Shown one piece after another: positions 3,125 through 51,229 of a stretch of DNA of 64,000 nt. Under the pieces are notes generated by a model, which saw only the letters and a program-made list of their open reading frames with translations, was not told the origin of the DNA and ran no database searches. The translations under genes were made by a program, and so were the position numbers. Each line of letters starts with the position of its first letter. Positions within the stretch are counted from its first letter, which is position 1. The DNA comes from Simmondsia chinensis. Lineage: Eukaryota; Streptophyta; Magnoliopsida; Caryophyllales; Simmondsiaceae. The DNA lies in NCBI GenBank assembly GCA_018398585.1, contig JAGTTD010000001.1:24249438-24313437 (forward strand). Reading direction: 5' to 3'.

Positions 3125-4051
3125 TGTCATAACCCTCGGGTTGGTGGCGGGGTTGGTCACGATCTTAAGGCTCGTGACCGAGATAATAGAGGTTTAGAGT
3201 AGATGAGAGATAGAATTGAAGATGAAATGAAAGACAGTTTAGAAGAAAAAAAGAAACAAAGAAAATAGATAAGAAGTAGGGGTAATTAGAAGTTGACAAT
3301 TAAAAGAATGTTCATTAATATTCCAATTGATATCTATTACAAGCTGGACTAGGCCATTTATAGAAACTAAGTACAAATGATGTTTGCTGAAAAATGTCTA
3401 AGAAATAAAGAAAAATATCTAAAAATCATTGAATAACAACTTCTAGAGACTTCTGGACAGCTCTAGAAGGTTTTTGACTATTTTGGGTAATTTTGGCAAC
3501 TTCTGGAAGGTTCTAGAGGCTTCTAAAGTTCGCTGGCAGTTAGCTGGAATCTAGGCACTGCTACTGTGCCTGGGCTGTGACCTCAGGGCGCAAGATAGTG
3601 TGGCACTAGTATTAAGAATCTGGGTCTTGCTTGTGACCCTAGCACTGTCACAGACACTGTCATATACTCACTGGCTGTGACGCTAGTACCTGACCCGCAC
3701 TTGACTAGGACACGGAAGTAACACCCATGGCACTGAACTTGACATACCCCTTCATGTCAGGACATGCGCTTGGCCTAATCACCCAGGCGCAGCTAGGTGC
3801 GAGGCCTGTGCAGCCATACATAACCCTAGCTCACCCATGCACATCTCATGCACACTCACACACACACCATGCGCACACCACACGCATCTCAGCGTAACCC
3901 ATGCATAGATATGCACACCTCATGCACAACCATGTGCAATTCATGCGCATTCCAACGCAAGTCATGCACACTCTGGTGCATGACCCCATTTTCACGACCC
4001 TGGATGCATCAGCCACTGGATTGTGGCGTCCATAATGTCAAGCACATGACA
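3125..4051 (-). mobile_element. Gypsy-type LTR, 927 bp
   Basis: The segment begins TGTCATAACC and ends CATGACA on the plus strand, giving TG...CA ends with a 6-bp inverted repeat (TGTCAT/ATGACA). To its right on the minus strand is a polypurine tract (GAAGGGGAAGGGTTTG, ending at 4052) of the sort that precedes a 3' LTR, so this reads as the 3' LTR of a minus-strand element. Its promoter-proximal half (about 3830-3985) is rich in short CATGCACA-like repeats. No second copy is in the window. The 'gypsy' call rests on the coding-like tail upstream of the PPT and is moderate. Confidence 0.6.
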
Positions 4052-4714
4052 AACCCTTCCCCTTCAAATCATCCTTGTCCTCAAGGATGGTCTGACGGTA
4101 CAAACCTCCGCATCGGGTTCCCTGCCAACCATGTCTCTATACTAATATCACTATTCCATTCCTATTACAATTCAACTAGTAGATTGAAAACAACCTATTA
4201 CATTCGTACACTACTTGTAACATATATGATAATTATTACATTCATATACTACTACTAACATATATGTGAACCTATGCTAACCGATTCCTTGGCGTGTGCC
4301 CGACATCTTCCTTCCCGGGTGTGCCCCAGCTATTCTTGAGTTGTTGAAGTGATCCTTATCCCCAAGGATCAATTGCCAAGATCGGTATCAATGAATAGAG
4401 CTTCTTGTACCAATCCCAGTTCTATGAAAACATTCCCATACTCGGTGTGTTTATCTTCTCGTACTAATCCCGGTTATAGGGTAATGATCTCATACATGTG
4501 TCTTCTGGGCCTTCTTGCTGAAGCGTCTCCATGTAATTTTGATCTTGGCATGGTGAACTCGACACGTTCTTGCACATGCGTTGCCCTGAGCTGCCATCTA
4601 TCTTTGTGGACCCATGTGATGTTGCGGTTCTTGTCTCTTTGTGGAATCAAGAGTTTGGCCCATCTTAACCGCTGTTTTTGGTGCTTTGACTATGGAACGC
4701 GCAATTTAACCAAA
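4052..4714 (-). other. PPT and unassigned internal stub of the gypsy-type element
   Basis: Only the last part of an internal region remains between the PPT (4052-4068) and the LINE. Near 4065-4090, on the minus strand, is a LEDKDDLKGKG-like end such as commonly terminates plant gypsy polyproteins just before the PPT. The stretch 4260-4714 has short minus-strand open runs but nothing I can name. The breakpoint with the LINE is about 4700-4720, judged by where LINE RT similarity stops. Confidence 0.4.
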
Positions 4715-5281: not shown

Positions 5282-6229
5282 CTAGCTCGTAGCCCATGCA
5301 TCACGGGCCACCTCGACTCTGGCCGAGATGTAACTGTAGTGGCGGGTGTTGAGGGCCTTCAACTCACTCTTCAGCAACTTCAGCTTCTGAGTGAGCTGAT
5401 ACATCAGAGTACCCTCAACAAAAGTGTCCCTGACTCGTCTGACCGTGGGAAGGAAGTCCTCGTGATCGGCCCAAAGATTGAAGGACTTGAAAGGAAGTCG
5501 CAGGGCACGACGTGCCCCAAGCCCTCGTACCACAATGGCGCTATGGTCTGAGACCACATGGCGGGCAAGGAACTCAGCGGATGCGATGGGGAAGTCACGA
5601 AGCCAACCCTCACTGACTAGGCACCAGTCAAGCCGCTTGAGAATCAAGCGGTCACCCTCGGCCTTATTGGACCATGTAAAGTGAAGACCCGAAGAGGAGA
5701 TAGGTGCCAGCTCAGCCTTAGTAAGGCACTCCTGGAAGTCGTCCATGTGACCTGGCCAACCCTCCTGGCCACCGCATCGATCGGAAAGACTAAGGATGGC
5801 GTTGAAATCCCCAAGGAGGATCCAAGGCTCACCCAAGAGACTCAAGCTAGTGCTCCGAATATAGTCGTATAAAGCTTGACGAGGACCCGACTCGTTAAAG
5901 CCATAAACAAAAGTAGCGAGAAAGCTCATGGCCCCAGAAAGATCAGAGATACGACAAGTAAGGAACTGGTCTCCTCCTCGAATGAGCTCGACTCTATGAA
6001 TACCCGGATCCCAAGCAACGATAATGCGACACCACGTAAGGCAAACACCACTGAAGAGAAAGCTCCACCCATCGGTACACCGACCAATCACCGCCTCAAC
6101 ATCAGTAGGTTTGGTTTTGGTCTCGACCAAACCAATGACAGATAAACGATTGGAAGAAATCCATTCACGAACTGCCCGGGGAGATTTGGGATTGTTAAGC
6201 CCCCTAATATTCCAACAACCAACCACCAT
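5282..6229 (-). pseudogene. LINE (L1-type) ORF2 AP-endonuclease domain
   Basis: An apurinic/apyrimidinic-type endonuclease, which nicks target DNA to prime reverse transcription. I place the start at the ATG at 6229, giving MVVGCWNIRGLNNP, the usual start of plant L1 ORF2. The open frame extends upstream to 6274, but that part is not family-like. Catalytic blocks in order: WNIRGLN, VETK, GDFNAI (about residue 135) and SDHSA near the end. The domain is open for about 315 codons and then meets TAG at 5282-5284 where similarity continues in the same frame, so the stop is a lesion. ORF2 follows ORF1 closely, as in intact L1s. Confidence 0.9.
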
Positions 6230-6699
6230 GATGAAATAGTCAAGTGGGAGCGCGGCCCGCACACTTGGCCGCACGAGTAAACGGCCTCCTCGGGCCCTCT
6301 ACGGCGACCTCAACACATGGGGAAGTGGAAGTGTCCGACACACTCTCAAATCGGTACGACGTGTCAAGGCTCGGCACACTTGCCGACCGATTCCAGGAAC
6401 CTATAAGAGGGCTAGCGACTCCAAGAATGCCATCCTAGGCCATCTCCACCTCAACAGGAACATCAACTATCTCTGAGTCTTCCCGAAGAGGGGTGGGAAC
6501 AAAATCAGCGAAAGTCCGAGGCGAAAGAGAAACTGACCCAGAATCCGAAAGGACCGTACGAGCACTCGGCTCCCTAACATCCGAGCCAACCACCCCCCTC
6601 AACTCAACGGTACCAACCATGCATGGGCTAGGAGTCTCCAAGCAGTCCACACACCGATCAGCATCAAGTCCGACAGACCCAAGAGTCGGCCCACGACAA

Positions 6700-30313: not shown

Positions 30314-30692
30314 TTGAATGTTATGAACCGAGAATCCAAGGCATGGGCTGTTGTTTAGCTGTGGTTATGCTGTGCTGCTACATATTGTGTCTATTTTAAT
30401 GCTGATTAGAGTTGATTGGTTTAATAAATAATGTGCTAGTAGCTGCATTGTATTGTCTTTAGTTGTTTAAATGTAATAAGCTGCAGAGGATGGCTTGAAT
30501 CAGGGGGGGTCCGAAGAAGGCTGTAAGTGTTAGTTGCTGCAGCAGGTTGTAGTTCTGTTAGGAATGGTGTTTCGGCGCTAAATAGATTCAAATGTTCGTT
30601 AAGCTTTAGTTCTAGATATTTCTAGATGTTCCCTAAGATGGTTAGTCCTTGTGTGGCTAGATTAAATGTATTAGCTCATATCATGTAAGTAG

Positions 30693-30700
30693 TATAAATA
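30693..30700 (+). promoter_or_regulatory. TATA box of the L2a 5' LTR
   Basis: TATAAATA, followed by GGAGGACCTAGCTTGTAATC. The same sequence is preserved in the 3' LTR near 34941. Confidence 0.7.
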
Positions 30701-30927
30701 GGAGGACCTAGCTTGTAATCAATAACTTTTGATGAATGAACTGATATCTTTTGATATTTCTCTCTATTTCTCATCTCCTTTCCCTTCTTTCTCATCTAAA
30801 CTCTATATTCTTTCTCATCTCATACTCTCTCTATCCCAACCAAGGTTAAGGCTCAAGAGCTGATCTTTGAAACCTTGACAGTTGGTATTAAAGCCAGGTT
30901 TGGCTTCCGAATCAAGCTCATATCCGG

Positions 30928-30942
<15 letters not shown>

Positions 30943-30974
<32 letters not shown>
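30943..30974. repeat. (AT)n microsatellite in the L2a leader
   Basis: A run of A (30928-30942) followed by about 16 AT/TA dinucleotides, between the PBS and the ORF. The leader 30896-32022 shows no other coding or repeat content I can name. Confidence 0.9.
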
Positions 30975-30982
<8 letters not shown>

Positions 30983-32022
30983 AATTAATTGTGTTGCAAT
31001 TAATCAACAAAAAAATAAGGTTTGATACCGATTTAGTTTAGATTTGGTGATCAGAATTCAAATTTGAATTTTGAAATTGTTTTTAGCGGTTACTGCACTA
31101 GTGATCAGCAAGGCCTGTGAAGTTGCTTTCGGTTGGGAATAAAGTGATCGAATTACATTGAAGGAAGTTCAATTAACCAGTATTTGTTGAGTATAATCAA
31201 CATTAAAGATGATTCAGATTGAATTCAAAAGGATCGATCAAGCATTTGCTGCAGAAGTTGAGTAATGAAGGAAGTAGCAATTGCTGAGGTTTGATGCTGA
31301 GCTAAGCTGTTCTTGATCGATCATCCATCTGATCGGTTGAGGAAGAAGTTATAATTGAGCTATTTGATCCACATTATACCGGATCATCATCAAAAAAGCA
31401 GAAATCATCTGAATTGAGGTGATTACAGATTTTACAATTCAGGAGTTGAAGTTTGAGGTAATGGTTTCCTGAACTTCAAGTTACAATTCATTGAGAATTC
31501 GTGTTTGTTGTTGGATTGTGATGAAATTGTGTTGATAAGCATAGAAGTGGTGAGAATCCATTAGAATCTGCGGTGATTTTTGAGAATTTTATGTTATTAA
31601 GTCGAGATTTGCTTAGGCGAAAAATCTGACAGCGGAGGCGAAAATCTGACATCAGAAGGAGAAGCGAAAGTGTTGAAATTCGATTTCGTTCATTAAGATC
31701 GCTTTGAGTATTGTGTTGAGGACTTGATTTTGAGTTAGAGTCGAGCTTAATTCAGAAGTGTAAGTCGAATTACTCAACTAAACGTTGCTGTCAGAAATCT
31801 TTCGAGGTTAGGGTTTGTTCGAAGTTTATCAGTTAGGGTTTATAATCATTGACGATTGTCGAACCGAAAGCAGTTGATTGGTTGTGCGAACAAAGGAGTA
31901 CAACTTCATAAAATAATCGATTGTTAAAGAGCTGCGGAACAAGTTTCACATCTCTGCGATTTTCGAACTTGGATTCTGCGAACTGAGCTGGTCCAAGATT
32001 GAGGTCGTTGTTCATTCTCGAT

Positions 32023-34425
32023 ATGGCTGAGTTGATTGAGTTGTTTGAGAAATTGAGACAAGAATGGAAACAAGAATGTATGAAGCTAATGGAGAAACTG
32101 CCATATTCAGCTCAATCGGTTGCTAACATCAGTTGTGATTGTGCTGGTGTTCTTGATGCAAATGAGTTTCCAGAATTAGCAGATAGCGTTAGACAACCGA
32201 AGTTCCGTGTTGAGCAAAAAGAGAGAGGGGAATCTGTTGCCGTTGGAGGTGAACTCGTCCCCGATAGTGCCGAAATTGATGAACATGAGTTAGAAGAACT
32301 GGAGTTTGAGCTGGATGATCATTATGAAGACTCTTTGCTCGAGTTAGAGTATCTTGCTGATGTTGAGGCACAATATGACATGCATCCGGAATGGGAATAC
32401 GATTTCCATGTCAAAGGAATGTTAAAGAGTGCAAAGAGTAAAGTGAAGAGGAATCATCTTAACGATGCATTGAAATACTTTTGGGAAACAAAGAAGATTA
32501 CAAAGAAGAAATTGAAGCATAAAGTTGTGTTGCAGACTATGAGGTTGGATGATCAACAAGAGCTAACTCAAGATGTTGCTTTGACTGATGTGTATGCTGA
32601 TATACAAAGATTCTTTGCCGCAGAATCTGTGATTCCAACTAAAAAACTTAAGGTTATTGCTGAAATATCAATGAATACGTCTCTAAATTTGTTAAGTGAT
32701 ACGCCATGGCAAGTAGGAAGGCTGAACCGAAGTGATTTCACTGCTAAACAATGTCTTTTTATTGGGAAATCAATTGTCTCTGCTGCAGTGTCATCAAATA
32801 TAGATCAGGGTATGCATAAGTCCACTTTTGGGCGTGCTGGAGCGTTAATTTAGGACCCAAACAACATCATCTTGGTGGCTTGGCAAGGTTCCTTGTGTTG
32901 GGTAAATGATTACGCATGTGTAGTGGCTAAAATGCACTATCGGCATGCCGATCGGCAAGTTCGAAATGATCTATTCCTTTATGAGGGTGGAGTTGTGACT
33001 TATCCGAGCGCGAGTCCTTGTGCTAAGTTGCCGCCGAATCCGAGAGAGGATTCTCAAGACTATATGGAGCTTATAGGAGTCGAATTTATGCTGGAACCGA
33101 TTTCAAATCAGACGAAAATCAGTACATCATTTGCAAATCGGGACAAAATGCAGCTGGAAGCTGCTGTTCTGGTGCAGAATCCGGGTGAGTTTTGGGTGAT
33201 CTATAGTGGGGTTTCGGAGTGGAAAAATCATATGCAGACGCTTCAATATCTTCTCAATGTGTGGATGAAAAAGGTCCATGCAACACCAAGGATAATTTTA
33301 GCTGAAATTGGAGTGCATATCAGCAGCAAAGTTTGGAGCGGAACATTTCAGAGATTGAAGAAGTTTGCAGCTGTTCCTGAGTCCCTTTGTTGTCTCCATT
33401 TGCTTTACTTGTTACTCATGTTTGAGTTGGTAGACAAGGGAGCAAAGCTTGATCACTTGAGGTGCATTTGGTGGCTGGTCGAGCTTGTGTTCCAAGGAAG
33501 ACTTGAGTACGGATTGCAAATGGTGAGCTGCAGCATTAGTAAGATCGGTTGGACTGTTTTGGAAGCTTAGGCAATAATGTTGGAACTTTGGCAATCAACA
33601 ATGGTTTATGAACTCCTAATTTGTGTGAACTATATAATAGTTTGGGAAGTAGTGGCTGAAGATTTCAGATCTTGCAAGCTCACAATCAAGATTCAAGCAA
33701 TGGAAGCAGAGGCTGCTGAAAATCTGAGGGTAATTGCAATTTTTTCATTGACAACAGTAAATGAGAAGCTCAAATTGGATGTGATTGGTGCTATTATGAT
33801 TATGGGAAAATGTCATAACCTGTTCACATCAAGTAGCATCCATATGGACATAAACCGAGCTGCAATCTGTCATTATGAGTTGCATTTGGGTTACACTGCT
33901 GAATTACTGAATTCTGCAGCAAATCAACGTGTGAAATTGGGAAGCAATCAAGAACTTGCTGAGCATGTCATGAGTTGGTTTACTATGTGGTTGTGTGAGC
34001 AATACAAATTTTGGATAAAATCCAAGATGAAAGATTGGCAGCTGCACTCTTATTGGATTGCTTTGGGTTTGGTCACCATGGTCAAGAAATTGGGCTGTGA
34101 CTGTTGCGATGGAACATGTTTACAAGCCGATTTTGATGCGCGGTTCTCTTGGTTTGAATTTGGAAGGCCTCCCGAGATTTTAAAGGACTTCATATGCAAT
34201 TTTGTGTGGTTAATAACATACAAAGTCTGTTGGGCAGCATTCTACAAACAGAATTTCAGAATTACAGATGCAATTGGTGACTTTCAGCAGCAAGTCTAGG
34301 TTTTGAGCTCTGTTAACTGCATCAAGAAGGGTTCGAAATGTGTTGGTGATGTTTGGTTTGATCGTAGCAGACCTCTTGAAGAGCATTATGTACTCAAACG
34401 CAGACATGTCATCAAGATAAATTGA
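32023..34425 (+). pseudogene. L2a unknown protein, single frame with three internal TAG codons
   Basis: I do not recognise this protein. From the ATG at 32023 (MAELIELFEKLRQEW) one frame runs 801 codons to TGA at 34423-34425. It is interrupted only by TAG at 32851, 33568 and 34297. Similar composition continues across each TAG with no frame change, so it looks like one ancestral ORF. Visible features: an acidic stretch (EIDEHELEELEFELDDH, about residue 85-105), a lysine-rich segment (KKITKKKLKHK near 155), several Cys- and Trp-rich hydrophobic stretches in the last third (WLVELVFQG, CCDGTC), and a basic C-terminus (VLKRRHVIK). No D-T/S-G protease, no YxDD, no DDE spacing, no CCHC. It occupies the place of gag-pol. 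The TAGs could be decay (CAG to TAG) or readthrough signals; I favour decay. Confidence 0.6.
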
Positions 34426-34563
34426 AGTACTCATTGGTCATCCCAGCTGTAGATTTCAGCAAAACATCATCACTTCAGCTACCTATCCTATGCAACTATA
34501 GTTCTTCGTTGTTACAACTCTCTCCTATTCTTGAGGACAAGAATGTTCTCAAGGGGAAGGGAA

Positions 34564-35128
34564 TGTTATGAGCCGAGAATCCGAGGCATGGGGGGCTGTT
34601 GTTTAGCTGCGGTTATGCTGTGCTGCTGCATATTGTGGTTGTTATAATGCTGATTAGAGTTGATTGGTTTAATAAAGAATGTGTTAGTAGTTGCATTGTA
34701 TTGTCTTTAGTTGTTTAAATGTAATAAGCTGCAGAGGGTGGCTTGAATCAGGGGGGTCCGAAGAAGGCTGTAAGTGTTAGTTGCTGCAGCAGGTTGTAGT
34801 TCTATTGGGAATGATGTTTTGGCGCTAAATAGGATTTAAATGTTAGTTAAGCTTTAATTCTAGATATTTCTAGATGTTCGCTAAGATGGTTAGTCCTTGT
34901 GTGGCTAGATTCAATGTATTAGCTCATATCATGTAAGTAGTATAAATAGGAGGACCTAGCTTGTAATCAATAACTTTTGATGAATGAATTGATATCTTTT
35001 GATATTTCTCTCTATTTCTCATCTCCTTTCCCTTCTTTCTCATCTAAACTCTATATTCTTTCTCATCTCATACTCTCTCTATCCCAACCAAGGTTAAGGC
35101 TCGAGAGCTAATCTTTGAAACCTTAACA
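34564..35128 (+). repeat. 3' LTR of L2a
   Basis: TGTTATGAGCCGAG...CCTTAACA, 565 bp. It differs from the 5' LTR (30319-30880) by scattered substitutions and small indels, so the insertion is relatively recent compared with its host L1b. Confidence 0.9.
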
Positions 35129-42975: not shown

Positions 42976-43182
42976 CCTCCTGTTATGAATCGTTAGAATT
43001 TAATTGTAATTTTTGTATTAGTGGCTGAGTATTGTTTCAAGAGTTGAGTTGTATGCTTTTAAAAATTAGTTGAGTCGTTTTAGGCACCAAAATGGCAAGT
43101 TCGGGGCTGCTGCAGAATTGGGAGGGAAAATATGTTTTTTGGAGGTTATGTCATTAGTCTTGATGCTTTGTATCCAAAGGTT

Positions 43183-43190
43183 TATAAATA
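43183..43190 (+). promoter_or_regulatory. TATA box of the L3b 5' LTR
   Basis: TATAAATA followed by GGATCTTAAGCTTGTAATCTC, a transcription-start and polyadenylation neighbourhood like that in L2a's LTR. Conserved in the 3' LTR near 51048. Confidence 0.7.
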
Positions 43191-43424
43191 GGATCTTAAG
43201 CTTGTAATCTCATCATTCAATGAAATATAAACTGATTTCCTTTGGTAATTAACTCTCTTTTCTCATCTCTTTCTCTATTTCTCATCCCCTTTCACTTCTC
43301 TTCTTGCCTAACTCTTTCTTCTACTAGGTTAGACTTTCAATTCTCAATTGGAAGCCAAGAAGTGGTATCAGAGCCGATTCTACAATCAATTGATTGATTG
43401 AGGCTGGCAAAATAAAAGAAAAAT

Positions 43425-45653
43425 ATGATTGAAGGCGTGAGAACCAGATCTGGAGCTGGAGGTGCCAATGCACCAGGATCTGGATTGGATTTTATTGCTG
43501 CGGTTACGAGTTCTGGAGCTAATGTATCAAGTGATCATCACCGAGATTGGAACGACAAGTTAGAACAGCTGAATGCCAAGTTTGATGCTAAGTTTGAGCA
43601 ACAGCAAATCGAGCTTAAAGCTAGGTTTGATCAGCAGCAACAGCAGCAACTCGAGAGTAATAATAGCATTCAGCAAATGTTGAAATTGATTTTGGATAGG
43701 GACTCGAACAAGGAAGAACGGCTGCAACAAATTGAAGAAAAAATTGAAAAACTACAAGATCAGGTTAATAAACAAAAAGAATCAAGTGTTGATGCGATCT
43801 TAAAGCCTGCAAGTCAGATTTTTCATCAAAAAGAGTCCGATCAGCAGCAAGAACATGTTAACAGGCCTGAGATTATGGTGAGGAACTGTGACAAATCTCC
43901 GTTAGTTCAACCGACTGCAGTACCATCAATTAACATTAGATCAGCAGCAAATCAACCTCTGCATCGTGAATTTGATGCAGACAATCAGAATCGAGTCTCT
44001 GGACAGGCACATAGCAGACCTGAAGCTTCGAATTTAGACCACAACAGCAGGCCACAAAACTCAGTTTTGCAACGCAGTGCTGATTTTGATGAGTTCGAAC
44101 ATTTTGACAGACCTCCTGATTGACATTGTCAGCATATAACCGTAAGTAACGACATGATATCTGGTGGTGGGAGTGGTAATCACAGGCAGCCAAAAGTCGA
44201 AATTGATCCTTTTGATGGCAAGTTACCGGAATCATGGCTGAGAAGGTGTGACCGGTATTTCATGTATTACAGCATACCTGATGATGAAAAGCTCCAATTA
44301 GCGGTAGTGCATCTACATGGTGAACATGAGATTTGGTACTATAGTATATTAAAGAGCAAACCGAACCTTTCTTGGGACCAATTCGTAAAGGAAATGTGTG
44401 AACGTTATGGAGAAGGTGAATCAACGGACATTGTGGATAATTTTGACAAATTATCTCAAACTTCAACCGTGAGTGAGTACATGCTTAGATTTGAGAACTT
44501 AAGAGCCAACTTGCTGTCCGTTTTGTCTATAGCTCCCGAGGATACCAAGTGATATTATGTGCCTTGCTTTATAAGTGGATTAAAACCTAGGATCAAGAAC
44601 ATGGTGAAAGCCATTGGTCCTAAGACCTTGTCAAGTGCTTATAACAAGGCAAAATTGATTGAAGCCACTCATGTCCAACCGAGTGACAAATTTAAGCAGT
44701 CAAGCAGCAAGTTCAAGCCATAACCGAAAGCAGGTTCTGGTGCAGGTGCAGGATATAAACGTGTTGTTGACAGAAGCTCGGTGAGACTTCGCTTTCGCTG
44801 TAACCAGCCATATCAGCCTGGACATAGGTGCAAAACACAAGCAATAATGTGTGCTAAAGGGACCCATGTTGAAGCTGAAACAGGCAGTGAACATTCAGCA
44901 GCAGAAAGTGACAGTGTTGGTGATTCTTCACAAGATGAATTGAGTGACGATGAAGTGGAGATATCAATGAAGGCTTTAACCGGTAGTGAAGCTCATGACA
45001 CTATCAAAATTAGAGGTAAGGCTGGAAAACATTCCATCATTATCCTCATTGACAGTGGGAGTACACATAGTTTCATCGATCCAAAGTTGAGTAAGAAGGC
45101 AAGGCATGAAGAGATAAAGACTCATCCTTTGCAAGTGATGGTGGCTGATGGCAATTCTTTAACCATTCATAACAAGTGCATAGCATTCCCATGGTCTATG
45201 CAAGAACATCACTTCACCTTTGATTTCAGAGTTCTTCCTTTGGGAGGTTGTGATATGGTGCTAGGGGTGGATTGGATGAGGACCTTCAACCCGGTTATAT
45301 TCGATTTTAATAAGATGACCATGGCATTTGAGGTTCATGGCACCAAAGTATCCTTGAAAGGCATGTCAAAGGAATCTCAACCCAAGATAATTGATGGTAA
45401 ATGTGTGCACGAGGGGATCAAGAAGAAGGCAATACAATGGATAGGTCATTTGTTCATGGTAGCTACGGTTGAGCTGCGGCAGGGACTTCAACCAGAAGTG
45501 CAGTCCTTAGTGGATGAATTTGGTGACATCTTTGAGCTGCCTAAGAGTCTTCCTCCTCCAAGGAGTGTGGACCACGCCATTCCTTTGCGTGCAAATGCTG
45601 ATCTGGTGAAAATTCGGCCTTATCGATATGCACAGGCTAAAAGTCAGAGATAG
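43425..45653 (+). pseudogene. L3b gag and protease
   Basis: One frame from the ATG at 43425, interrupted by TGA at 44121 and 44550 and TAA near 44721. N-terminal Q-rich coiled coil (residues about 45-125), capsid region with DPFDGKLPESWLRRCDRYF and EYMLRFENLRANLLS (Retrotrans_gag), basic linker, then a damaged knuckle (C-N-Q-P-Y-Q-P-G-H-R-C; the first Cys is replaced, FRCNQ for a CxxC). Protease with IDSGSTHSFID and VLGVDWM. A frameshift at about 45650 separates it from RT. Homologous throughout to L2b gag (51230-52722). Confidence 0.9.
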
Positions 45654-46765
45654 AGAGGCAAGTGGAGGAACTTCTTCACATGAACTTTATTAGACCAAGC
45701 CATAGTCCTTTTGCTTCACTCGTGATCCTTGTGAAGAAGAAAGTTGGCTCAGCTAGAATGTGTATTGACTACCGCCGGTTGAATGCTCTAACGGTGAAGG
45801 ATAAGTTTCCCATTCCGATCATAGATGATTTGCTCGACGAATTACATGGTACGTGCTTCTTTTCAAAGCTTGATTTGAGGCAAGGATACCATCAAATCAG
45901 GGTCCTCGAGCTGGATATTTACAAGACAGCTTTTCAAACTCACCATGGCCATTTCGAGTTTGTTGTTATGCCTTTCGGATTGACAAATGCTCCGGCCACT
46001 TTTCAAGCAGCCATGAACGACGTTTTCAAGCCTTATCTAAGGAAGTCAGTGCTCATTTTCTTCGATGACATACTGATTTAGCTCAACATATGAAGCTCAA
46101 CTCACTCACCTTCAACAAGTGTTTGAATTGATGCGGCAACACAAGTTCTTTGCAAAGTTGTCCAAGTGTTCGTTTGCTCAAGATAAGCTCGAGTATTTGG
46201 GTCATATCATCTCACACGAGGGAGTGTCTACTGATCCTAACAAGATCTGTGCAATGCAAGAATGGGCAATTCCGACCACCTTGAAGAAATTGGGGGGTTT
46301 TTTGGGGTTGACCGGGTGTTATAGAAAATTTATTAAGGGATATGGTTCTATTGCCAAAATCTTAACCGAGCTCTTAAAGAAGGATGCTTTTAGATGGAAC
46401 GAGAGATCTCAAGCCACATTTGAAGCCCTTAAAGCCGCAATGTGTGCTGCACTAGTTTTGGCGATGCCAGACTTTACCGAAAGCTTTATTTTGGAGACCG
46501 ATGCAAGTGGTACAGGTATAGGGGCTGTTCTTTCTCTTGAAGGGAGGCCTATTTCTTACATGAGCCAAGCTCTTAGCCCTAAACATCAAGCTATGTCAAC
46601 ATATGAGAAGGAATATCTAGCCATCCTCTTAGCCATGGAGAAATGGAGGCAATACTTGGAGGGTCATAAGTTCATCATTCGAACGGATCATCAAAGCCTC
46701 AAGTATCTCCTTGAACAAAAGATCGTGACGAGGATTCAAAAGAAAGGTCTCACGAAAATGTTAGG
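45654..46765 (+). pseudogene. L3b reverse transcriptase and RNase H (5' part)
   Basis: RT 45662-46081 with [43 protein letters not shown] and FFDDILI. A frameshift/stop falls at 46079, and the second segment from 46119 continues connection and RNase H with FILETDASGTGIGAVL, YEKEYLAILLAMEKWR and FIIRTDHQSLKYLLEQ, up to KMLGL at 46765. Interrupted here by L4. The RNase H tail (DYDIKYRSG, ADALSR) resumes at 49257. Confidence 0.92.
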
Positions 46766-47433
46766 CCTTATGTCACGGACACGATATTCCCTGGTCCATG
46801 ACAATGCCAGGACAGTGCCCAGGTCGCTGCCTCAGCCTTGTCAGGGTCGCTGCCAGTGCCGTGCCCCAGCCATGTCAAGACATTGTCTCAGTAGTTACCC
46901 AGTCGTGCACCAGCCGTTTCATGACAATGTCCAACCCGTGTCTTGGTCCGTGCCCAGTCGCGCCCCAGCCTTGTCATGACAATGTCAAGGCCTTGTCAAG
47001 CCCGTGTCCAGGCCGCGTCCCCAGCATTGCTTCCCAGTGCCGCGCCGCACCTCAACCCACGCCTTGGACGCGCCTAACTAGCTGTTGGGATGCCCTTGCC
47101 CTCGCCTACTAGCCGTTGGGAAGATTCCTTAGGATATTATTTGATATTATTTGATTTTGTTGATGTAGTTAAGTAATCTCAAGTATTATTTTACTATTCT
47201 CGTGTATTTCTTCAAATAGGCATTTTGTAGTTCATTTGTAATCATCCAATTATCAAATATACGAAATATTCTATTTTTCATCTTTACTCTCTATTCTCTC
47301 ATCTCATCCCAATTCTATTTCTTTCTCATCCCATACTCTATTTCCCTTTCTTATCTCATCTAACCTCTATTGTCACTCAAATGGGCCTAAGTTCCACACT
47401 TTGGCCGTAACTAACATCAAGGTTCATTACAGT

Positions 47434-47445
47434 TGGTATCAGAGC
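47434..47445 (+). other. Primer-binding site of L4
   Basis: TGGTATCAGAGC, complementary to initiator Met tRNA, three bases inside the 5' LTR end at 47431. A perfect core shows L4 uses the same primer as its gypsy and copia neighbours. Confidence 0.9.
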
Positions 47446-47520
47446 AGTTGCGATCAGGGCCACGTCCCAAAGTTGCGTTTGAAGTAAAGGCGGTACAAAT
47501 GATTCAAGAACGTCAATGAG

Positions 47521-48489
47521 ATGGCCATGTTATTGGGCAATGTAACGGGTCTTCTTTATCCCATTACAAAGGATGTTCTCAACCGTGTATTTTATATTTT
47601 TGGAGTCACTGAAGAAATTGTTATCATTTCAACTTGGTCCATTAAAGTGGAAGCACATGTAAAATACACTTCTTGGGAGGACGCTAAAAGGGCACGCCAA
47701 GGGCTACATAGAAGAAATGTCTATGACCATTGTTGTGCACTAGACATTGAATTCTTGACGCCTCTTAAAGAAGGTATTGCTGTGATCCATAAAGAACTCA
47801 TCAACTATAACAATGTGACGAAGGAGGTGACAGCAACCCTCGATTCCTTGAACGGAAAATTGAAGCAATACATGCATAACCAAGGAATGGACCCCGAGAA
47901 AAACGATCTTGACTTGATTCTTTTAGAAGCCATGGCCAAGCAAGAACCGGTTGAGCCAACCGCCCTCGTCAAACCGCAAGATGTGGGGACGGCTGATGTC
48001 CTTCATATGTCGGACAAACCATTCTCCCAAGAATTGCCCGTTCACATCAAAGATGAACCGGAAGAGCCCCCCTTGGTTGAGGAAACGCATGGGTCCTTTG
48101 AAGTTGCCTTGACCCATGAGCCTCCACAACTTAAGGACAAGGAACAAGTTACGAGCACCGAAGCCGCTGTCAAGGATCCCTTCCTTGAGCTTTCCGTGTT
48201 AAATTTAAGGCCACCAAGTGGTGCTGTTGCACAGTCAGTCCAGCAGCAGCAAGAGACGCAGTGGCAACGTGGTGGGTCGCACATAAAGAGGGGAACTGGG
48301 CTGAAAACCAAGAAGAAGAAGGGCCAATCGTGTGAATGCTTTCCAAGAACTGGGATCGGAACTAAAATCTTCAAGGGCCCAAGTCATCCGGCTTGGCTTT
48401 CGATCCTTAAGGACAAGGATCATCCGTTTAAGCCGGGAATAGAGGTGATATGGATAATAATAGGGAGACAAGGGGACAAACCAAGGTAA
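47521..48489 (+). CDS. RRM-domain protein carried by L4 (PTB/hnRNP-L-like)
   Basis: Intact 322-codon ORF, ATG at 47521 to TAA at 48489, 76 bp after the PBS. Residues about 7-82 match the second-type RRM of the PTB/hnRNP-L family: LLYPITKDVLNRVFYIFGVTEEIVI lines up with the family's 'L-Y-P-(V/I)-T-x-D-V-L' start (quoted in two parts here: LLYPITKDVL and NRVFYIFG), followed by a weak RNP1-position strand (VEAHVKYTSWEDAKRA) and NVYDHCCALDIEF, equivalent to 'I-Y-x-x-C-C-x-L-x-I-x-F'. RRM aromatic residues at the RNP1 site are largely lost, as usual in PTB-type RRMs. Then a coiled-coil-like part (85-130), an acidic/proline-rich middle with KDEPEEPPLVEE, a QQQQ patch near 240, and a basic KTKKKKG tail (about 262) that could be a nuclear signal or bind RNA. 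Likely role, inferred: RNA binding or packaging for the element, or a captured host splicing-factor fragment. Confidence 0.75.
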   Translation: MAMLLGNVTGLLYPITKDVLNRVFYIFGVTEEIVIISTWSIKVEAHVKYTSWEDAKRARQGLHRRNVYDHCCALDIEFLTPLKEGIAVIHKELINYNNVTKEVTATLDSLNGKLKQYMHNQGMDPEKNDLDLILLEAMAKQEPVEPTALVKPQDVGTADVLHMSDKPFSQELPVHIKDEPEEPPLVEETHGSFEVALTHEPPQLKDKEQVTSTEAAVKDPFLELSVLNLRPPSGAVAQSVQQQQETQWQRGGSHIKRGTGLKTKKKKGQSCECFPRTGIGTKIFKGPSHPAWLSILKDKDHPFKPGIEVIWIIIGRQGDKPR

Positions 48490-49035
48490 AGGATATGGGC
48501 AATAATAGGGTGACGAAGGGGCAAACAAACGAAAGAGATCCGGGAGCCAAAGGTTGCACCGTCATCGCATCCTTGAGGGTAAGGATGAACTTAAGGGGGC
48601 GGGAATGTCACGGACACGATATTCCCTGGTCCATGACAATGCCAGGACCGTGCCCAGGTCGCTGCCTCAGCCTTGTCAGGGTCGCTGCCAATGCAGTGCC
48701 CCAGCCATGTCAAGACATTATCTCAGTAGCTGCCCAGTCGCGCACCAGCCGTGTCATGATAATGTCCAGCCCGTGTCTTGGTCCGTGCCCAGTCGCGCCC
48801 CAGCCTTGTCATGACAATGTCAAGGCCTTGTCAAGCCCGTGTCCAGGCCGCGTCCCCAGCGCTGCTTCCCAGTGCCGCGCCGCACCTCAGCCCACGCCTT
48901 GGACGCTCCTAACTAGCAGTTGGGATGCCCTTGCCCATGCCTACTAGCCGTTAGGAAGATTCCTTAGGATATTGTTTGATTTTGTTGATGTAGTTAAGTA
49001 ATCTCAAGTATTATTTTGGTATTCTCTTGTATTTC

Positions 49036-49043
49036 TATAAATA
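49036..49043 (+). promoter_or_regulatory. TATA box in the L4 3' LTR (lost in the 5' LTR)
   Basis: TATAAATA upstream of GGCATTTTGTAG. At the equivalent place in the 5' LTR (about 47209-47218) the sequence is TTCTTCAAATAGG, so the box of the copy that would drive the full element is destroyed. Confidence 0.7.
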
Positions 49044-49256
49044 GGCATTTTGTAGTTCATTTGTAATCATCCAATTATCAAATATATGAAATATTATATT
49101 TCTCATCTTTACTCTCTATTCTCTCATCTCATCTCAATTCTATTTCTTTCTCATCCCATACTCTATTGCCCTTTCTTATCTCATCTAACCTCTATTGTCA
49201 CTCAAATGGGCCTAAGTTCCATACATTGGCCCTAACGAACATCAAGGTTCGTTACA

Positions 49257-49522
49257 CCTTGATTACGACATCAAATATAGAAGTGGCAAGGAGAACACTG
49301 CTGCGGATGCTCTGTCAAGGCAATTTGAAGACGATAATTAGGCCCCTGTGTTGCTGTTACCATGGTAATTCCTTCTTGGGTGGAAGAGTTACATAAGTCC
49401 TATGAGAGAGACCCTTTTGCCCAGGAAAAATTGGTCGTTGCTGTGCTTACACGCGAGGCAAAGATCGTTGCTGCTGACACTGACATCACTGTGCAGCAGG
49501 GGCTGATCCGTATTAGAGGCTG
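49257..49522 (+). pseudogene. L3b RNase H end and tether to integrase
   Basis: Resumes L3b after L4 with DYDIKYRSGKENTAADALSRQ, the conserved RNase H terminus, then stop codons near 49339. From 49362, VIPSWVEELHKSYERDPFAQEKL is the tether to integrase. A frameshift near 49518 moves to the integrase frame. Confidence 0.88.
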
Positions 49523-50815
49523 TTGTATGTTGGTTCTGCCACTAATCTGAGAGAACTGGTCATCCAAGCTTCACATGATGCTGCTTGGGGTGGTCACGAG
49601 GGTGTAGAAGGCACCTATCAACGAATCAAAGCATATATTACATGCCCAAGTATGAAAAAAGATGTAAGTGATAACGTGAAGTCTTGTGAAGTATGTCAAC
49701 AAACGAAGTTGGGAGATCCTCATTACAAGGGACTTATTCAACCTCTTCCCATTCCGAAGGGAGCTTGGGTTCACATTAGCATGGATTTCATTGAGGGACT
49801 ACCGAAGTCCGAAGGGAAGGAGGTCATATGGGTAGTGGTGGATCGTTTCACCAAGTATAGTCATTTCATTGCTCTTGCTCAACCCATCACTGCTGAAAAA
49901 TTGGCAACGATCTTCCTTGACAACATTTACAAATTACATGGATTGCCTCAATCCATTGTGTCCGATCGAGGTAAGATTTTCACAAGCACGTTTTGGAGGG
50001 AGTTGTTCAAGTTGATGGGTACTACATGGGCACCCAGTTCCTCTTATCATCCTCAAACAGATGGCCAAACCGAACGAGTCAACCAATGTGTAGTGCAGTA
50101 CCTTCGGAGTATGGTCTTCTTGAGGCCCAAGGAGTGGAACCGTTGGCTTTCCTTAGCCGAATTTTGGTTCAATACCCACCTCCACACATCCATTGGCACT
50201 TCACAGTTCCAAGCATTGTATGGATATCCTCCACCCTCTCCTATGATGTTACAACAACCAAAAGCCACCGATTCTGCAGCAACTAATTTAGTTCAGCAGA
50301 GGAAGCAATTTATGCAAATGCTTAAGGACAATCTTCAGCAAGCTCGAGCTCGGATGAAGTACTACTCTGACAAGAAAAAGGTAGACAAAAGCTATGATGT
50401 TGGTGACATGGTCTACCTTAAATTACAACCGTATAGACAGTCCTCCTTGGCTATCAGGCGTAATGTCAAGCTAAGTGCTCGATACTTTAGCCCGTACAAA
50501 ATTCTGGAGAAAATTGGCAATGTTGCTTATAAGCTTGACTTACCTACCCATTCATACATTAACCCCGTGTTTCACGTGTCCTTACTTAAAAAGCAGGTTA
50601 AAAAGGGAGCTGCAGCTGCTCGGGATCCTCCTGCTGCAGAAGCAAACGGTGTGCTGGTGCTGCAGCCTATTGCTATAAAGGCTTGGAGGTCTCTCCAGCA
50701 TGATCATGGTGCTGTGCAAGAAGTTTTGGTGAATTGGAGCAACTTGGACAAGGGTTTGATGACTTGGGAAGATTGCAATTTCTTGAAGAGCACATTCCCG
50801 AGCTTCACTTCTTGA
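49523..50815 (+). CDS. L3b integrase with chromodomain-like C-terminus (intact part of pol)
   Basis: 430 codons open, the longest uninterrupted retrotransposon ORF here. It is part of a polyprotein, so there is no real start codon; the frame begins at YVGSATNLREL. HHCC zinc finger: H in ASHDAAWGGH and C-E-V-C. Catalytic core D-D-E: SMDFIEGLP, SDRGKIFTS, QTDGQTERVNQ. GPY/F-like module KLSARYFSPYKILEKIG, PVFHVSLLKKQV, then a chromodomain-like VLVNWSNLDKGLMTWEDC near residue 400. The catalytic triad is complete. TAA/TGA follows, then the PPT and 3' LTR. Upstream lesions mean it would not be made as part of a full polyprotein. Confidence 0.92.
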   Translation: MYVGSATNLRELVIQASHDAAWGGHEGVEGTYQRIKAYITCPSMKKDVSDNVKSCEVCQQTKLGDPHYKGLIQPLPIPKGAWVHISMDFIEGLPKSEGKEVIWVVVDRFTKYSHFIALAQPITAEKLATIFLDNIYKLHGLPQSIVSDRGKIFTSTFWRELFKLMGTTWAPSSSYHPQTDGQTERVNQCVVQYLRSMVFLRPKEWNRWLSLAEFWFNTHLHTSIGTSQFQALYGYPPPSPMMLQQPKATDSAATNLVQQRKQFMQMLKDNLQQARARMKYYSDKKKVDKSYDVGDMVYLKLQPYRQSSLAIRRNVKLSARYFSPYKILEKIGNVAYKLDLPTHSYINPVFHVSLLKKQVKKGAAAARDPPAAEANGVLVLQPIAIKAWRSLQHDHGAVQEVLVNWSNLDKGLMTWEDCNFLKSTFPSFTS

Positions 50816-51229
50816 GGACAAGAAGCTTCTCAAGAGGGAGGGAATGTTATGAATCGTTAGAATTTAATTGTAATTTTTGTATTAGTGGTTGAGTATTATT
50901 TCAAGAGTTGAGTTGTATGTTTTAAAAATTAGTTGAGTCGTTTTAGGCGCCAAAATAGCAAGTTCGGGGCTGCTGCAAAATTGGGAGGGAAAATCTAATT
51001 TTTGGAGGTTATGTCGGTTAGTCTTGATGCTTTGTATCCAAAGGTCTATAAATAGGATCTTAAGCTTGTAATCTCATCATTCAATGAAATATAAATTGAT
51101 TTCCTTCTGGAATTAACTCTCTTTTCTCAACTCTTTCTCTATTTCTCATCCCCTTTCACTTCTCTTCTCACCTGACTCTTTCTTCTACTAGGTTAGACTT
51201 TCAATTCTTAATTGGAAGCTAACACCTCC

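Follow-up and report, generated by a model that had tools for sequence, protein, structure and literature searches.

A 64,000-nt stretch of Simmondsia chinensis DNA (the window) contains a long terminal repeat (LTR) element, L4 (46771-49256), whose single long open reading frame (ORF) encodes a protein that begins with an RNA recognition motif (RRM) of the polypyrimidine-tract-binding (PTB) type. The explanation that we favor, at a probability of about 0.6, is that L4 is one copy of a large, gypsy-derived group of non-autonomous LTR elements mobilized in trans, whose RRM protein acts in cis as a ribonucleoprotein (RNP) factor. The group is real, large and, in the literature searched, unreported; its anatomy, its kinship and the constraint on its RRM are evident from its copies, and the function of its protein would follow the mechanism proposed below.

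L4 encodes a PTB-type RRM protein between paired LTRs

A sequence-only reading of this DNA had described L4 as an LTR retrotransposon, and the element indeed carries paired LTRs, a primer-binding site (PBS), a polypurine tract (PPT) and a target-site duplication (TSD), the two copies of the last agreeing at four of five positions. In window coordinates its features are:

46766..46770, no strand: left TSD copy CCTTA, 4/5 identical to the right copy
46771..47431, + strand: 5' LTR, 661 bp, TG..CA
47434..47445, + strand: PBS, TGGTATCAGAGC, which we take to be of the initiator tRNA-Met type
47521..48489, + strand: sole long ORF, 322 amino acids (aa)
47521..47760, + strand: RRM, type B, of PTB-RRM2 type, aa 1-80
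47761..47880, + strand: helical segment with heptad periodicity, aa 81-120, predicted local distance difference test (pLDDT) 50-69 in the model
48304..48321, + strand: basic cluster KTKKKK, aa 262-267
48334..48378, + strand: family tail motif ECFPRTGIGTKIFKG, aa 272-286
48572..48605, + strand: 3' end resembling a Ty3/gypsy pol terminus plus PPT, reading CTTGAGGGTAAG; family form CTTGAGGACAAG
48593..48605, + strand: PPT, AAGGGGGCGGGAA, abutting the 3' LTR
48606..49256, + strand: 3' LTR, 651 bp, at a Kimura two-parameter (K2P) distance of 0.054 from the 5' LTR, with a single 10-bp gap
49257..49261, no strand: right TSD copy CCTTG, flanking the 3' LTR

Across 2000 mononucleotide shuffles of the L4 internal region the longest ORF reached 162 aa, against 322 aa in L4. 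Residues 6-78 matched RRM_8 (E 4.7e-17, 62.4 bits, cut-off 26.2), the protein also matched RRM_1 (E 4.5e-06), and sequence matches in PDB were PTB1 RRM2 and hnRNP L/LL RRM2. An AlphaFold2 model showed the order strand-helix-strand-strand-helix-strand, with block pLDDT values of 71-86 over aa 1-80 and below 50 for aa 127-322; the top Foldseek matches were PTB RRM2 (3zzy, 33% identity, 2.2 Å) and hnRNP L RRM2 (7evr, 1.5 Å). Profile and structure thus agree with the PTB-type RRM that had been read at the start of the single intact ORF. By sequence, fold and the tree described below, the domain is of the PTB/hnRNP L RRM2 subtype, for which binding of pyrimidine-rich RNA would be predicted.

Proteins of the L4 lineage run from the RRM through a coiled-coil-like helix and an acidic linker to a basic tail. 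The heptad score after the RRM, in either of the two types A and B that the family contains, was equalled by 1-10 of 300 shuffles in five sequences. The basic end claimed earlier for the L4 protein holds in that the basic cluster and the family tail motif are present, but not for the last 13 residues (310-322): the ORF keeps the family frame to aa 309 (48447) and then leaves it. Close relatives mostly match the L4 ORF only to aa 309, a few extend to 320-322, and the translations show the frame difference.

Searching L4 by tblastn with the gypsy-type ORFs of the window as queries gave no gag or pol match inside the element, as expected from the earlier statement that gag, protease and pol are absent; the L4 tail did match integrase at 49493-49846 by tblastn, which was judged to be chance. 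A protein database of 5.8 billion sequences held no relative of the L4 ORF or of alignment A2, although a gypsy gag of the window, used as a control, itself drew only 7 matches there (4 plant-named), so this absence says little.

RRM elements form a large family in the genome

We searched the 831-Mb assembly from which the window comes (35 contigs). The 322-aa L4 ORF gave at least 181 matches (124 of 2447 candidates scored), several of which may be pieces of one copy. With a query that we take to be the Arabidopsis PTB3 RRM2 sequence we obtained at least 150 matches (150 scored of 2154 candidates), one being an exon of the host PTB3 gene and the other 149 being RRM matches at 40-54% identity, uninterrupted by introns for most of the domain and some with internal stops; the two match lists overlap.

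We examined 53 element loci (L001-L054 minus L044, the host gene), which are not all separate: L003, L016, L017 and L027 belong to a single tandem array, L049 and L007 overlap, and L029 represents the same insertion as L4. At 41 of the 53, the RRM lies between paired repeats of 250 bp or more (the pairs of L003, L017 and L027 come from the array). When the best TSD up to 10 bp from the borders was taken, 22 loci had a perfect 5-bp copy pair with TG..CA and five more had one mismatch; a pattern search located a PBS at 32. The K2P distance between LTRs ranged from 0.010 (L026) to 0.115 (L054), and the low values of 0.010-0.019 in L026, L030, L033, L043 and L051 suggest that RRM elements have been active recently. 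When 10 of the 150 rows of the PTB3 list were sampled systematically, the RRM was intronless in all 10 and accompanied by a repeat pair in five, one pair being degraded. Wider flanks of four pairless loci revealed repeats around the RRM at three (L055, 91.5%; L058, 75.7%; L056, a 97-bp fragment pair), and at L057 nested RRM elements with no repeat pair around the queried RRM.

Gag/pol content was assessed by tblastn on 54 loci, including the host gene, with 10 window ORFs, six of them with recognized gag/pol domains, all gypsy-type. Between the LTRs of the 41 paired loci these gypsy-type queries, which did not include a copia-type pol, found no gag/pol match; because the internal regions span only ~1.1-3.5 kb, there is little room for a copia-type pol. 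Gag/pol matches occurred at 8 loci, all in the flanks, and at six of these (L001, L012, L021, L029, L032, L051) gypsy coding flanks the RRM element at either end, which places it inside a gypsy element. In the wider flanks, L055 and L058 gave no match and L056 gave matches outside its LTR fragments. By Pfam, 12 of 12 ORFs (L4, L010, L020, L025, L026, L030, L034, L039, L042, L043, L048, L051) contained RRM_8 above cut-off and no Gag domain. In the loci searched, the RRM elements thus lack the genes of an autonomous element, as LARD/TRIM-like elements do, and they are not TR-GAG elements, the ORF being no Gag by Pfam in those 12. Both the RRM match and its fold are present in L4, and no examined copy has gag-pol in place of the RRM; the outcomes that would have refuted the sequence-only reading were thus not seen.

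Several loci are compound. The tandem array (G000 C35:35050329-35059400) reads LTR-internal-LTR-internal-LTR, and coordinates indicate similar arrays at C8:11639544-11646656 (five matches ~1.71 kb apart) and C8:13767412-13772034. The nested cluster at L057 (G000 C29:22589000-22597500) holds three RRMs, one of them more divergent (29-33% identity to L043/L042).

The RRM probably came from host PTB3 and diversified by fusion

In the host PTB3 gene, RRM2 is split by introns into exons of 121, 65 and 50 nt, with borders placed from GT/AG and reading frame alone, and the element RRMs run continuously across these positions; the intron loss relative to the nearest host PTB gene that the sequence-only reading had raised was therefore found. 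The L4 RRM is 44.7% identical to host PTB3 RRM2. Across 40 element rows, 13 columns reach a constancy of 95% or more, and 12 of the 13 are the same in the host protein.

A tree of 42 rows and 80 columns combined 39 element RRMs with three outsiders, namely host PTB3 RRM2, Arabidopsis PTB3 RRM2 and human PTBP1 RRM2, under a midpoint root; of the 47 element rows, 8 that were partial or redundant were omitted, and L012, L014 and L015 gave no row. The 39 element RRMs formed one clade (100/98) apart from the three outsiders. Because they are intronless, of PTB3-RRM2 type and in one clade, the RRM was probably taken from the host. A single capture of a PTB3-type RRM is the simplest reading of the tree, short of proof with a midpoint root, few columns and three outsiders.

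The lineages differ in LTRs and architecture. L4 and its group carry a B domain only, L031 and L032-L035 an A domain only, and L026 and L030 both in tandem, as does L024 with a broken A. Two RRM_8 stretches were recognized in L030 (E 2.5e-34) and in L026 (E 3.9e-34). Since the A and B domains of the tandem elements nest within the A-only and B-only clades, respectively, the tree points to an origin of the tandem form by fusion. A second conserved basic region (SIRKL..GRPPDFL..SWIKR) comes after the RRM in L042, L043 and L055; it is 53-60% identical among them and had no Pfam match and a mean model pLDDT of 45.9, so no fold is claimed for it.

The RRM is under purifying selection

We compared copies by pairwise Nei-Gojobori counts of the ratio of nonsynonymous to synonymous substitution rates (dN/dS). 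Among 29 B-group copies (406 pairs, not independent), the RRM gave a dN/dS of 0.34. The alternative reading frames gave 1.17 and 0.89, and neutral simulations gave 0.65-0.80, with a 5th percentile of single pairs of 0.37-0.46. Deep pairs gave RRM values of 0.21 (L031/L033), 0.20 (L031/L030, RRM-A), 0.23 (L036/L025), 0.48 (L039/L036) and 0.45 (L042/L043); for the last pair the whole ORF also gave 0.45 (off-frames 0.80 and 1.08), with dS partly saturated. The RRM core is conserved in the lineages compared. The RRM has evolved under purifying selection, and the earlier question whether other copies in the genome share the ORF at a dN/dS below 1 is answered positively for the RRM.

RRM elements resemble Ty3/gypsy in their 3' ends and, in one group, in their LTRs

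Within the window, the pattern CTTGAGGACAAG-N5-20-GGGAATGT marks the 3' end of a proven gypsy element (50811) and that of a further LTR element (34530), and occurs in none of 100 shuffles. A relaxed version of this pol-end motif is present in 33 of 57 RRM loci, some of which overlap, and L041-L043 carry a shorter form, GAGGACAAGAATCTCTAAAGGGG. L4 itself lies outside the loci matching the relaxed motif, its 3' end being 2 bases away from CTTGAGGACAAG.

A strict genome pattern (WED motif, pol end and LTR start TGTCAC) was found at one place, L059, a gypsy element whose LTR matches no RRM LTR; a looser pattern gave 149 gypsy-type end places and 0 in the control. Among the eight of these places that we read (L059-L066), the LTRs of four aligned with those of RRM elements for the greater part of their length, in the pairs L063-L052 (76.7%), L061-L052 (76.3%), L061-L051 (69.1%), L066-L051 (68.9%) and L065-L051 (66.9%). 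The LTRs of L060 and L062 matched RRM LTRs in part, and those of L059 and L064 gave no match. Integrase matches were present in L059-L061 and L064-L066; before the pol end, L062 (protease, weak gag) and L063 (gag, protease) were without reverse transcriptase and integrase. The RRM group L046/L048/L051/L052 thus appears to have gypsy relatives with enzymes, and the pol-end motif and the LTRs held in common with integrase-coding gypsy suggest that the RRM elements derive from Ty3/gypsy.

As a separate observation, L063 (G000 C1:28818659 region) looks like a gag-only partner form that shares LTRs with an RRM lineage.

A proposed cis-acting RRM protein and its alternatives

In the explanation that we favor, one retro-copied PTB3-type RRM would have been captured by a gypsy derivative, and gag-pol supplied in trans would reverse-transcribe and integrate the resulting elements; such trans-mobilization is suggested because the elements combine LTR, PBS and PPT ends with a lack of enzymes and have gypsy relatives. 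The RRM protein would bind the RNA that encodes it, a cis preference much like that of LINE ORF1p, and the bound RNA could gain in stability, in nuclear export, in translation or in its loading into the particles of the partner. Cis action is proposed because a trans-mobilized element should keep a protein only if the benefit returns to its encoding RNA. The sequence-only reading had offered either capture from a host splicing regulator or an RRM protein serving as RNA-packaging partner of a non-autonomous family; the intronless, one-clade RRM agrees with the former and a shared protein under purifying selection with the latter, packaging itself being one conceivable role. A bolder proposition is that an LTR superfamily swapped Gag-Pol for a domesticated host splicing-factor domain as its own cis RNP protein, so that a gypsy parasite arrived independently at the strategy of LINE ORF1p and then split into several lineages as its RRM was duplicated and fused and a new basic domain was added. 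We offer it tentatively, at somewhat short of even odds.

Several observations count against this explanation or parts of it. Constraint outside the RRM is weak: the linker gave a dN/dS of 0.57 (off-frames 0.63 and 1.05) and the tail 0.47 (off-frames 1.81 and 0.55), each barely below one control, and recent A-only pairs gave 0.69-1.86 overall with 0.42-0.48 in the RRM, that is, little constraint beyond that domain. Because the L4-L010 pair has an RRM dN/dS of 0.63, L4 itself may be a relaxed, dead-end copy. The open frame of L4, once thought to hint at constraint, was rejected as evidence for it, since the probability of staying open after ~25 neutral substitutions, indels ignored, is ~0.4. 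None of the eight gypsy-end loci read, of 149 places, has an LTR matching that of L4, and these loci are known from their 3' parts only, so an RRM at the 5' end could escape. At L057, a gypsy integrase lies ~3.3 kb upstream of the RRM on the same strand, with no LTR pair to settle membership.

The evidence for a cis RNA target is likewise mixed. The U5 of RRM LTRs is pyrimidine-rich (76-86% C+T in the best 100-nt window of 21 LTRs), and so, equally, is that of three ordinary window LTRs (79-80% C+T), so this tract was rejected as a specific RRM target. Counts of TCTT, CTCT and TTCT exceeded dinucleotide shuffles in 26 RRM LTRs (mean z 2.4, 17 of 26 above 2; L4 z 1.3), compared with a mean z of 0.2 and a highest value of 0.8 in six LTRs of three other window elements. 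This count had not been planned, the RRM LTRs are not independent of one another by descent, and the controls are three elements, one with its strand chosen by pyrimidines; the excess of PTB-type motifs is therefore a hint of a cis target.

Gypsy ancestry would also be expected if an autonomous master encoded RRM and gag-pol together, L4-like copies being its deletion derivatives and purifying selection having occurred in the masters. The gypsy-type 3' ends and the LTRs common with integrase-coding gypsy do show a gypsy ancestor, and both the partial view of the gypsy-end loci and the integrase at L057 would suit such a master. We nonetheless consider it unlikely: the 41 paired loci show no gag/pol match between their LTRs, and with such short internal regions in several lineages with different LTRs, each lineage would need its own hidden master. 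Moreover, the 3' parts of seven of the eight gypsy-end loci contain no RRM, the eighth, L064, having a partial RRM match ~1.4 kb beyond the LTR start. If the RRM protein instead acted on the host, in splicing, silencing or stress granules, it could protect the elements or their partner generally instead of binding in cis to the RNA that encodes it. An RRM2 of the PTB/hnRNP L type would allow this, since the best structural matches include complexes with the protein partners Raver1 and SETD2, and since 95% or more of 40 element rows retain the tyrosine and second cysteine of the IYD.CC motif. A purely trans benefit would, however, be hard to select in a multicopy element, which makes this alternative quite unlikely in our view.

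Capture of host genes by plant LTR elements has precedent, and the RRM could likewise be a functionless passenger, held open through youth and the copying of few source elements. The open frame of L4 is not significant on its own, and the recent A-only pairs are near neutral outside the RRM, as a passenger would be. This account is already disfavored and we rate it as very improbable, given an RRM dN/dS over 406 pairs well apart from off-frames and neutral simulations, deep pairs at 0.20-0.23 (three) and 0.45-0.48 (two), and an RRM core conserved in the lineages compared.

Relation to known systems

Plant LARD/TRIM and TR-GAG elements likewise have LTRs, PBS, PPT and TSD, lack pol and are presumed to be mobilized in trans. 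TR-GAG likewise keeps one structural-type ORF, whereas the single ORF of the RRM elements encodes a PTB-type RRM protein and not Gag. The combination of RRM, coiled-coil-like helix and basic region recalls LINE ORF1 (human L1 ORF1p and the RRM-type ORF1 of plant LINEs); the RRM elements differ in being LTR elements with PBS and PPT, in the host PTB3-RRM2 type of their RRM, and in placing the RRM first and the coil after it. From host PTB3, PTBP1 and hnRNP L, which share the RRM2 subtype, the element protein differs in having one or two RRMs rather than several, in being intronless, and in its coil, acidic linker and basic tail, all of which are new. Ty3/gypsy elements here (window 50811-50847 end; L061, L065, L066) have the same 3' end, CTTGAGGACAAG..AAGGGG..TGT, right before the LTR, and LTRs that align with those of the L046/L048/L051/L052 group, but RRM elements are without gag, protease, reverse transcriptase, RNase H and integrase. 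Maize Bs1, a gene-capturing LTR element, likewise contains host coding sequence; unlike it, the RRM elements kept and diversified one captured domain across several lineages under selection.

Among the matches listed in a literature search with subscription journals mostly outside it, none describes by title or abstract an LTR element encoding an RRM or PTB-like protein, and one passage of PMC12786077 contains no RRM. The usual view of non-autonomous LTR elements is that they are passive passengers; the RRM group keeps a host-type RNA-binding domain under purifying selection. This raises the question of how a protein can be maintained by selection in an element dependent on the enzymes of another, to which cis preference would be a testable answer. 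With this group there is also a datable instance of a retroelement protein made from an RNA-binding domain of the host, and a reason for caution, since plant genes annotated as 'PTB-like' may be ORFs of such elements.

Surroundings of L4 in the window

L4 is itself inserted in another element:

42981..51222, + strand: Ty3/gypsy element hosting L4, with LTRs at 42981-43358 and 50845-51222; L4 inserted in pol

The gypsy coding that flanks L4 on both sides (RNase H 46119.., integrase 49523..) is part of this host and not of L4. The same insertion recurs ~507 kb away at L029 (G000 C31:24802836-24806339), with gypsy pol flanks ~93% identical to those of L4 and the TSD CCTTG on both sides. L4 was therefore probably copied along with its gypsy host in a duplication.

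A second LTR element of the window (30316-35128) has 95% identical LTRs, a gypsy-like 3' end and ORFs at 31999, 32872 and 33577. Its assignment to gypsy from the 3' end was withdrawn, its three ORFs having no match to Pfam or to the other gag/pol queries. At 4047..4474 on the - strand lies the decayed 3' part of a probable relative, with the tail ECFHRTGIGT.. and a PPT; no RRM was found in 4047..4474, and the LTR that follows, at ~3130-4050, is a different one. Adjoining this relative is a LINE-like ORF (5282-6274, - strand) that matches Exo_endo_phos (E 6e-12).
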